A stretch of DNA of 64,000 nucleotides, taken from assembly GCA_963965975.1 (NCBI GenBank), contig OZ014420.1, positions 7,156,001 to 7,220,000 of the forward strand, written 5' to 3'. Below are positions 11,975-62,831 of the stretch, piece after piece. Source of the stretch: Xestospongia bergquistia (taxonomy: Eukaryota; Porifera; Demospongiae; Haplosclerida; Petrosiidae). Every line of letters begins with the position of its first letter. The first letter of the stretch is position 1. The notes beneath the pieces were generated by a model. The model ran no database searches, was not told the origin of the DNA, and saw nothing but the letters and a program-made list of their open reading frames with translations. The position numbers and the translations under genes are program-made.

Positions 11975-13220
11975 ATGGCTGCTGAAGAATTAATTGTAGA
12001 AGAAATGAGTAGCTTTCCAGATTGGAAGACAGCTCGGAATATTCTCAGAGATTTGAGAGAGAATGGAGGAAGAGAGAGTGAGAAGGTGATCTTTTTGGGT
12101 ACTGAGTTATTAGACAATTATGGCTCCAAATTAGGAGATGAAGGTACTTTATTTATAAACATGTGATTGAATAATTCCATTTTTTTAGTTTGGCTCGTTC
12201 ATGAACAAGTTATACCAGCTGCTCTAGATATTGGCGATATTAAACGAGCAGAAGTAATTTTATACATTTATGTCCAGTTGACTTATTTATTTATCCATTT
12301 CACCAAGCTATTCATCCATTTTATTTTTATCTGTCCATAGCTATCACTGCAATGTCTTCAGAAACGTTTCTCTGATAGCAAGCGAGTTAAACGATTACAA
12401 GGTCTAATAATGGAAGGAAAACAAGAGTGTGTCCATTACATTGCTCATGCATCCATTGTTTGTCTAATTCAGATATGACCAAGCTATAGAATTTTACAAG
12501 ACAATCCTTGAGGAAGAACCTACTAATTATCTTATAATGAAGAGGAAAGTAGCTGTCTATAAAGCAAAGGGAGATATATTATCTGCCATTACTGAACTCA
12601 CTAAACTATTAGAAATGTATATAATAATAATATATTAATATAATATTATTAATCTATTGTTTTTAGTTCAATGGCAGATTATGACAGCTGGTCTGAATTA
12701 GCTGATCTTTATATCACACAACATCAGTAAGTTAGAGAGAACATGTACATTTATTATTACCATATTAGATATGACAAGGCAGCATTTTGTTTGGAGGAAT
12801 TAATATTATCAAATCCACATTATCATCTTCATCATCAACGTTATGCCGAAGTGAGTGTGTGTGTGTGTGTGTGATCATGTCGGCTCTCTCTCCCTAAGGT
12901 CTGTTATACTCAGAATACACAGGACAGTCTTGAAATAGCAAGAAAGCACTTTGCTGCTTCACTCAAATTAAATCCTAATAATCTTCGTTCCCTATATGGT
13001 CTTCATCAATCAGCTTGCTCCTTAATTAAACATCCTAAAATTAAAAAAGAAGCTAAAATTAAAAATGAGGACATTCTTCAATGGACCAGTTCACAACTTT
13101 TAGAATGTTATCAGGTATTTATTTGATCAGATAACAGTGATATTCATTAACATGTATTATTTACAGGATAGTTCAAAACATCTCAAAGTAGTTGACCAGT
13201 TCCTCAAAACTTGTAAATAA
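11975..13220 (+). CDS. EMC2: ER membrane protein complex subunit 2 (TPR protein)
   Basis: Eight exons (11975-12143, 12189-12253, 12341-12426, 12473-12616, 12667-12726, 12769-12850, 12899-13114, 13167-13220) join in frame to about 291 residues, near the human 297. The peptide follows EMC2/TTC35 throughout: GSKLGDE then [67 protein letters not shown] and [16 protein letters not shown]. It is a cytosolic TPR scaffold of the EMC, which inserts tail-anchored and multipass proteins into the ER membrane. An in-frame ATG at 11960 would add five residues. The shorter start is chosen because MAAEE is the more usual N-terminus. AATAAA overlaps the stop region. Convergent with the kinesin gene downstream. 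Confidence 0.95.
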
Positions 13221-13477
13221 AATAAACATTGTCACTTTATTAGGAGAGAACTGTGTATGACAAAAAATTAAATTGAACTAAAATTTGAAGTTTGAATTGT
13301 CTATTATAACATTATCATTATTAACAGCTGTTTGAATTATTAGGCATAATACCCAAAAAAAGAAATAAATAATAATAATAATACAAATTATATCTAATAA
13401 CAGATATTAATAAATTGGTCGTTTTGCTATATTGGCAGCAACAGACAATATTGTACAAACTAGAGAGACAGATATGA

Positions 13478-60200: not shown

Positions 60201-62831
60201 TTCCAAGTTAAAAGTACAGCAGGAGAGTGTCCCTATAATTAGTCCATTAATTTAACAATGTTTACATATAATTGATATACCTTGGTTAGCTACTATCACA
60301 TATATACCTCTCATATCAGCAGTTAATGCTAAGACATTACTTTCTGGAGTTAACTTTAATTTTTTAGGTGTTGTCTGGACACAAACTGGATCAAAACTGG
60401 AACCAGTTCCTGGTATGACCTAATTGACAAGTGTATTATATAAATGAGACATTTAATTGTACAAACCACTAAATCTTCTCGACGTAATAGACGACAATGA
60501 GATAACACACTCTTATCACCTTCTTCATCTGGTCCCTCCCCCTCGTTAATAGTAGGAAACAGTACAGCTGCATATAGACCATCTAATTTGACAACTGTAC
60601 CAAGAGGAGTTGACGAGAGAGGAGGAGAAAGGAACACTACATCACGCAGTGACCATAGTTCCTCCTTTTCCTTTTTATTTTCTTCAGCATCATCCTCTTC
60701 ATCAAATGGGTGTGGTCTTTTATTTCCTATAAAAAATAATCAATTTTATAGGTTGTCATAGCAACATAACTCTACCCACCAATAGAAGGACCTGGTTGTG
60801 ATAAATCTCTTTGATCTACTTCCATTGTTTCTACTCTCTCAGTAGAAACATCATCAATAATTTTAAATCGACACTTTTCACTTAAAGAGAATACAGATTC
60901 TTGTAATATACCACATTTTAATGTTGACCCTTTGATATAAATAGCACGACATCCAGATGAATAAATAGGACGTGAGCGGAGACACACTTGAGAACCTTCT
61001 TGAACAGTGTCACTTTTAGCCCCTCCCCCTCCTCCACTAAGCAAAGATCCATTATGATGATAAGATCTGTTCTTATCTTGGACTTGAGATATAAGTAATT
61101 TTCTCTCAGAGAATGGGAGGACACCCCTGTAATTAGAGCAATTATAAAAATAACGATTGATTGTTATCTTACCACCAATAAATTCTTCCAGACTCTGTGT
61201 ATATTGTAGAAAATAATTCACACGTTGTTAAATAGACAATAGTTTCACCAGCTAATTCAGTAAAGGAAGAAGCTATATGTTCTAAATATTGTCCATATTT
61301 TGCAACAGTTGGATCTAACCAGGTAGCTATTTTACCAGAGACAGTAACTGCACTTGCTCTAAGAACACGAGCAGATAAATATCGTATTACTTCTTCTTGA
61401 AGGCCAAGTTCAATAGAACGTGGATGAGGTGTTGATGGAGGAAGCAAAGATTTCCATTGCCAGCCATACAACTGACCTTTATTATCAACTGCTAATAGTT
61501 CTGATGCAGTAGCAGCTATGATTGAAAATCTCTTAGAGTCCTAATGAGGGGTGTGGCTATAAATCTAACTTATTAATACTTACATCTCCTTCTCTCCAAC
61601 ATGAATGTGTTCCAAAATGAACTGATGTTGTATTAGAGCTCTCTTTACCTTGACCACACCCCTTTGTTTTACTACCAGATAGAGAAGATGTTGATGGTCC
61701 TCCACTAGACGAGTTAGTAGCATTTCCTGTAGCTGCACGATCAGCTAATGTCACCCAGGAACGAATTTCTTGAGCAACTAAAGGATCACTATAAATAGCT
61801 GAAGGTCGTCCTTCTCTACGAAATGCTTCATCTCTATTACGACCAGACATTATTAACAATTCTTCTAAATCATCTTCTCCCAGAGCCCCTGATCCAAGTA
61901 GTGTTAATAATTCATCTAATTTTATTAAAATAGATTATGGTTACCATGGCTACACAACTACCTCCAGAAGGAACAAGAGCAATGTCTTCTTCACTAACTC
62001 CACCTTCATCATCATCTCGACTCAATAGATTATTAACAGCAGTATTAACATCAAGATTCTAATTAACGGATCATCCATTAAACCATCAATCCATCTGTCA
62101 TTAATCTATCCATACTTACAGTACGTTGTAATTCTCTAATAACTACATCTCGTGATTTTCCTTGTAACACGGCCATTGCTTCCTCAATAAGTTCCTCAGG
62201 TATTTCAGACACAGGTACAACAGGAGCACGAGATAACAGAGTACGTCCCAATCTATCAGGACGACGTTCTATTCTCCTTGCACTAAGTCTACCTCTTCTT
62301 GAGATAAGACTACTAAATCGTTGACTGTAATATAATTAATAAGTTATCATAAAAATCATAAACTCACGCAAATGATGAGAATCCTTGGGGCTCATGATCA
62401 CCACGAGGTGAATCCCCCCTAGACATGGCACTACTAGTAGAACCACCATCATCCTCACTAAGTATGAAATGATTACATCTAATAACCACACCCCTGACCA
62501 CACCTTTTCTCTTTAGGTAACTCGTTTGTTAAAGAATAAGGAATTCGATAGACACGCCCATCATCCATTAACAGAACAAAATGAGTTGTTGCTACAACAA
62601 CCTGTTTAACAGATACACCCACTAATTCTGACCTGTAAAACAAGTATGACTCATAAATGAAATAATCACATGACTGACTGAAACTGTCCAGAACGACCTG
62701 TATCTTGACACAATCCTTTCAATCTGAAAAAAGAGAGATAACAACTATTTATATAAAATAAAGATACCTTGATGTCAATTGAGAAGCAGTCGAAATATAA
62801 CTATGAGAGAAACACTTTACTTGAACAGCCA
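54256..62831 (-). CDS. UBR5: HECT E3 ubiquitin ligase UBR5/hyd
   Basis: About 35 exons from the start at 62831 ([14 protein letters not shown]) to the stop at 54256 give roughly 2,260 residues, shorter than human (about 2,800). In order: a UBA domain ([36 protein letters not shown]), beta-propeller-type repeats ([26 protein letters not shown]), the UBR-box zinc finger ([32 protein letters not shown]), a long acidic Ser/Glu/Gly-rich region, and a C-terminal HECT domain ([47 protein letters not shown]) with the catalytic Cys in [12 protein letters not shown]5 ubiquitinates N-degron and orphan subunits in the nucleus and cytosol. The MLLE domain normally inserted in the HECT N-lobe has no room here. 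Divergent from the Pygopus-like gene by 67 bases. Confidence 0.95.
54556..54607. repeat. (GA)n tract at a UBR5 splice acceptor
   Basis: About 26 GA units on the plus strand form a (CT)n polypyrimidine tract on the gene strand, running directly into the acceptor AG of the last UBR5 exon (5' end at 54554). Confidence 0.95.

Follow-up and report, generated by a model that had tools for sequence, protein, structure and literature searches.

Does a sponge retain, within a few tens of kilobases, a set of genes that in human belongs to the long arm of chromosome 8 (8q), and if so, at what scale was the linkage kept? The question is raised by a 64,000-nucleotide stretch of the Xestospongia bergquistia genome (contig OZ014420.1, here C10, C10:7,156,001-7,220,000; the window in what follows), in which genes matching EMC2, SPAG1, STK3/4, EBAG9, EEF1D, ASAP, Tribbles and UBR5 follow one another in this order from ~11,975 to ~62,800. 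The assembly contains 146.46 Mb in 21 contigs, and C10 (7.336 Mb) makes up 5.0% of the genome. The original prediction explained the gene set by retained ancient animal linkage, and the excess of 8q counterparts supports this: it is very probable that the window belongs to an ancestral chromosome-scale animal linkage, the single-copy counterpart of regions on human 8q, 2p25, 6 and 20, with duplications and rare exchange between chromosomes included in that reading.

Genes were called from reading frames combined with Pfam families, matches to solved structures (PDB), and tblastn or alignment to assumed human sequences. By the family, structure and alignment tests, all eight predicted genes are present within ~51 kb (values after family names are E-values):

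11975..13123, + strand: EMC2, several exons (match to solved EMC2)
27958..30252 (5' end approximate), + strand: SPAG1 with TPR repeats (TPR families, PDB match)
42087..43525, - strand: STK3/STK4 (MST1/2, Hippo kinase; PDB match)
45784..46467, + strand: EBAG9, hand-spliced model (local alignment)
46533..47834, - strand: EEF1D with exchange domain, EEF1D-type N-terminus and leucine zipper (EF1_GNE, 8.5e-17)
47831..52139, + strand: ASAP-family ArfGAP, with PH, ArfGAP, ANK and SH3 by eye (ArfGap, 1.4e-21)
52486..53654, - strand: Tribbles pseudokinase (TRIB matches)
54259..62718, - strand: UBR5 HECT E3 ligase (HECT exon, UBR box)

EMC2, SPAG1, UBR5 and EBAG9 are single-copy matches, EBAG9 being the weakest. 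The hand-joined exons of EMC2 score 225.6 bits against solved EMC2, with an engineered TPR protein as runner-up (78.8 bits); two exons scanned singly had no Pfam match. SPAG1 is the top natural PDB match of its gene (114.9 bits, behind one engineered TPR protein). All six sequences matched by the HECT exon are UBR5, and the UBR box was found at 2.3e-4, below the family cut-off. For EBAG9, no Pfam family was above the cut-off and tblastn with the assumed human EBAG9 sequence gave no match; the hand-spliced model aligned to the same human sequence with a score of 105, compared with a maximum of 75 among 1000 shuffles.

It had been cautioned that some of these genes might belong with paralogues on other human chromosomes, a worry that our bit scores partly remove. 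The STK3/4 and Tribbles genes look older than the vertebrate duplications, because they match the human paralogues almost equally (206.8 bits for STK3 and 206.7 for STK4, next family 133.7; 127.4 bits for TRIB2 and 126.0 for TRIB1, next STK40 at 84.3). The EEF1D gene looks like the delta type, with an N-terminus of EEF1D type and a leucine zipper, both recognized by eye, and its lead over EEF1B2 is only slight (83.6 vs 77.8 bits over the whole gene against assumed human sequences); for one exon EEF1D and EEF1B score 66.3 vs 65.2 bits, and the best single stretch reverses this order (59.7 vs 61.3). The worry stands for ASAP, whose ArfGAP domain was compared with ASAP2 (90.6 bits) and ASAP3 (81.8 bits) only, the ASAP1 chain being absent from the 19 compared.

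We take the human counterparts to be located at 8q23.1 (EMC2), 8q22.2 (SPAG1), 8q23.2 (EBAG9), 8q24.3 (EEF1D) and 8q22.3 (UBR5), and those with several members at 8q24, 2p25 and 1p36 (ASAP1, ASAP2 and ASAP3) and at 8q24, 2p24 and 20p13 (TRIB1, TRIB2 and TRIB3). The table of PMC6585022 places STK3 at 8q22.2 and STK4 on 20q. Apart from positions in that table and the order GPAA1-CYC1-VPS28, human positions in all results below are assumed. The chance model took a share of 2.2% for 8q and counted every human paralogue of each family. Out of 15 families in the window (the eight genes and the seven listed below), eight have an 8q member, where 0.54 are expected (P = 1e-8), in line with the prediction that the matches are far above chance. 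Among single-copy genes only, with EEF1D treated as single, five of eight are on 8q (P = 2.7e-7). With an 8q share of 3%, the two values become 1.1e-7 and 1.3e-6.

The flanks, sixteen 10-kb loci (L001-L010 and L021-L026, with repetitive loci among three downstream ones), contain three families with an 8q member (OXR1, PABPC1 and NSMCE2) out of 21, where 0.68 are expected (P = 0.028, uncorrected). The codon-usage filter, trained on 24 open reading frames of the window, was too strict for the flanks, where looser settings and inspection by eye were used and short exons and unfamiliar genes were missed. In the flank and control exon scan, 17 of 20 gave a Pfam family and CCS, NMD3 and SMNDC1 gave none; CCS was later recovered by tblastn, and NMD3, SMNDC1, SDF2 and CYB5 were identified by eye. 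ADAM17 is firmly identified in the flanks (18 of 18 matched sequences are ADAM17), and PDIA6 was named by eye after a thioredoxin-domain match; we take both to lie on human 2p25, as does ASAP2, with TRIB2 nearby. IRS-like, zinc-finger, HACD-like, PDZ, PDI-like and arylsulfatase genes and several open reading frames of the flanks were excluded from the counts. In L021 and L023 (C10:7.27-7.29 Mb), toward the end of C10, no conserved gene was recognized and there are repeated short frames, so that C10 may hold no further gene-rich stretch beyond the gene block.

To describe the window as a block shared with 8q, as had been proposed, is too simple, members of the set being found also on 2p25 (ADAM17, PDIA6, ASAP2, TRIB2), 6 and 20. 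Over window and flanks (194 kb; 36 families with 55 assumed human positions), chromosome 8 is represented 12 times (1.9 expected), chromosome 6 seven times (3.0), chromosome 20 five times (1.5) and chromosome 18 three times (0.8). According to the table of PMC6585022, many families have members on human 1, 2, 8 and 20 and several also on 6; STK3/STK4, GRHL2/GRHL1 and AZIN1/ODC1 are among them. The stretch thus resembles an unduplicated state of these human regions.

We mapped ten further human-8q families singly, and found two on C10 (RAD21 at 6.43 Mb and VPS28 at 0.29 Mb), three on C6 (EIF3E, a weak match with E 3.3e-4, WASHC5 and POP1), two on C14 (GPAA1 and CYC1, adjoining) and one each on C1 (V-ATPase C), C5 (RRM2/2B) and C9 (DCAF13). 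The counterparts of human 8q are thus distributed over a number of sponge chromosomes (six among the ten genes tested) and do not form a single unit in this genome; we rejected the reading of C10 as an intact 8q chromosome, eight of the ten being on other chromosomes.

Several points, besides the reliance on assumed human positions, weigh against ancestral chromosome-scale linkage as we read it. Two of ten families on C10, given its 5.0% share, corresponds to P = 0.086, which alone does not mark C10 as the 8q chromosome; an eleventh family, 14-3-3, is ambiguous, with loci on C7, C10 and C11, and including it gives P = 0.015. Taken as wholes, human chromosomes 2 (5 vs 3.7 expected) and 1 (8 vs 5.8) show only a slight excess. 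Finally, PMC6585022 backs the co-location of these families more than the timing of their duplications, because the paper, by its title, sees duplications as distributed across the history of animals.

Some of these loci have features of their own. The 14-3-3 genes are apparently three in tandem at C10:5,924,559-5,930,038 and an apparent tandem pair on C7, and the C11 copy lies in one open frame. Beside RAD21 (L018:5248-8910) we found by eye two pyrroline-5-carboxylate reductase-like genes in opposite orientation, one exon of which matches F420_oxidored; PYCR3 is presumably on human 8q24.3. In L020 (C14:5,473,001-5,483,000), CYC1 (~4236-5120, - strand) and GPAA1 (~5828-7392, + strand) are head to head, ~1 kb apart. 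The two also adjoin on human 8q24.3 according to PMC5740759, and CYC1-GPAA1 is a candidate microsynteny pair retained from sponge to human.

The original prediction also called the linkage unusually fine in scale. As far as gene order is concerned, this does not hold: among the eleven 8q genes of window and flanks, two pairs are no more than 1 Mb apart on human 8q (98-145 Mb), where 2.3 are expected. No excess closeness is left within 8q, so gene order has not been kept; the order is scrambled within 8q, and linkage is kept regardless of it. Retained closeness within 8q was accordingly rejected, the spacing of the eleven genes being no tighter than random. Nor are the eight genes a case of microsynteny in the sense of few intervening genes in both species, no human pair of them being closer than ~1 Mb.

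In density, the finer scale receives some support, from a window that was picked for it: eight of 15 window families and three of 21 flank families have 8q members (P = 0.025). This leads to the strongest rival explanation, a sub-chromosomal cluster on top of chromosome-scale linkage, in which restricted rearrangement or common regulation would have held ancestral neighbors together, inside ~200 kb in the sponge and a few megabases in human. We regard it as possible, though doubtful. When flanks and other C10 loci are taken together, the comparison becomes 8/15 vs 4/30 (P = 0.0099, or 0.0028 without PYCR as an 8q family), again for a window selected for the feature. The other C10 loci contributed nine families identified by eye (AGBL, COX5A, RhoGAP, EXT-like, PYCR, LONP1, PMVK, UTP15 and TARS1); RAD21 and VPS28 were left out, as their loci had been picked for them, and no conserved gene was recognized in five of the seven spaced C10 loci (L011, L012 and L014-L016).

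The cluster is also favored by eight family pairs that lie within 1 Mb in human, including CCS-CTSF, RIOK3-TTC39, ADAM17-ASAP, STK-PABP and NSMCE2-TRIB, where 1.95 are expected with chromosomes kept, a number matched in one of 1000 randomizations; this null used assumed and uniform positions, and is blind to gene-dense regions and large retained segments. Whether there is local density beyond chromosome-level linkage depends on the number of 8q genes on C10: with 20-40, eight in 15 genes has a probability of at most 0.022 after multiplying by windows in all six grid cells, but with 80-120, the count times windows exceeds 0.05 in five of six. Against the cluster also stand the absence of closeness within 8q and the little conserved local order that PMC10719294 finds in cnidarians. 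The local concentration is thus suggestive but selected after the fact. That a neighborhood of ~200 kb, its order not kept, has persisted since the sponge-human ancestor, with intrachromosomal mixing slower or more constrained near this end of C10, seems to us unlikely.

One of the close pairs deserves a description. CCS (L007:9131-9998, - strand) and a cathepsin-like protease gene (L008:2900-3703, - strand) are separated by ~3 kb, in which an MRTO4-like gene lies. We take CCS and CTSF to be close neighbors on human 11q13.2; for the protease gene, cathepsin F leads the cathepsins with 73.9 bits, and four other cysteine proteases score higher (79.5-87.9 bits).

EEF1D and ASAP are tightly spaced and head to head, and such packing of some neighbors might be taken to favor functional clustering, in which co-regulation or a shared regulatory block holds the genes together. 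This is very improbable, as the human counterparts are spread over ~45 Mb and we know of no common pathway for the eight gene products. Chance combined with free choice of paralogues is hardly credible: STK, ASAP and TRIB do have two or three human members each, which makes three multi-member families among the eight, and such families give many chances of an 8q match, but every member was counted in the expectation, the single-copy genes and the 3% share give the small P values above, and 1e-8 multiplied by ~2,300 windows and 40 chromosome arms is still ~1e-3.

Under ancestral chromosome-scale linkage, C10, at least in this region, would derive from a linkage group of the animal ancestor. Early genome duplications would have multiplied that group in the vertebrate line, with pieces remaining on human 8q22-q24, 2p24-p25, 6, 20 and 1p. 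The rarity of exchange between chromosomes would have kept the genes linked at the level of the chromosome, and inversions would have shuffled their order within it. We infer that the linkage is shared by common descent, that duplications produced the human distribution, and that rare exchange could have maintained linkage without shared regulation.

The seven further window families with human counterparts, none of which we take to have a member on 8q and of which the original prediction named KIF13 alone, are as follows:

9804..11540, - strand: RIOK3 (RIO1 domain, 3.5e-28; RIOK3 over RIOK1/2 by eye)
13481..20624, - strand: KIF13 kinesin (by eye only)
22986..25530, - strand: TTC39 (Iml2-TPR_39, 3.2e-34)
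36622..39302, - strand: ERICH3-like, DUF4590 and a long repetitive part (DUF4590, 1.5e-5, slightly below the family cut-off)
43562..44500, + strand: AASDHPPT (tblastn 103 bits, 1.5e-26; AASDHPPT_N, 7e-4, below the family cut-off)
44774..45576, - strand: SPMAP2/THEG repeat protein (THEG, 6.4e-32)
62986..63252, + strand: PYGO PHD-finger exon (PHD, 1.2e-7; PYGO by eye)

The one KIF13 exon scanned had no Pfam match. Their human positions are presumably 18q11.2 (RIOK3), 6p22.3 and 8p12 (KIF13A and KIF13B), 1p32, 9p22 and 18q11.2 (TTC39), 1p31 (ERICH3), 11q22.3 (AASDHPPT), 19p13.3 and 4q12 (SPMAP2/THEG and SPMAP2L), and 15q21 and 1q21 (PYGO). An arylsulfatase, an ankyrin protein, EGF-repeat proteins and two open reading frames (at 21.8 and 26.3 kb), without clear human counterparts, were excluded from the counts. 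A minisatellite lies inside the KIF13 region (window 14140-14676; 54-bp units, 9.9 copies, 99% matches). A 614-codon open frame (window 36622-38463, - strand) with 27/54-bp and ~102-111-bp repeats appears to belong to the ERICH3-like gene. Secreted EGF-like repeat genes at window 31913-36448 are tandemly duplicated, with at least two copies and a remnant by eye; their first exon had no Pfam match.

The window offers a worked example, gene by gene, of ancient linkage in a compact sponge genome, set beside the dispersal of other human 8q genes over several of its chromosomes, and a testable place for asking if genes mix evenly within ancestral chromosomes. In the literature we searched, we found neither the name of the linkage group that holds the window genes nor a useful published account of them as a linked set, which does not show that none is in print.

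The explanation is of a known kind, ancestral chromosome-scale linkage; what is somewhat unexpected is the local density alone. The BCnS ancestral linkage groups were reportedly described by Simakov in 2022. According to Schultz 2023 (PMC10232365), they are chromosome-scale linkages common to sponges, cnidarians and bilaterians whatever the gene order, and here too linkage is independent of order (PMC10719294 likewise reports linkage retained irrespective of order); the statistics of such deep linkage groups are debated, according to PMC12728501. The present linkage is seen in one sponge genome compared with human. The likeness to the metazoan microsynteny blocks of PMC8851819 is that a few families are close in both genomes, inside 1 Mb in human and ~200 kb in the sponge; those blocks were defined with a threshold of five intervening genes, whereas human distances among our eight genes are megabases. 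The human 1/2/8/20 paralogy regions tabulated in PMC6585022 take in human regions raised here, 1 and 2 only slightly so, with STK3/STK4 listed and several families also on 6; in its table that paper treats the duplicated human state, whereas the sponge window appears to show a single-copy counterpart.

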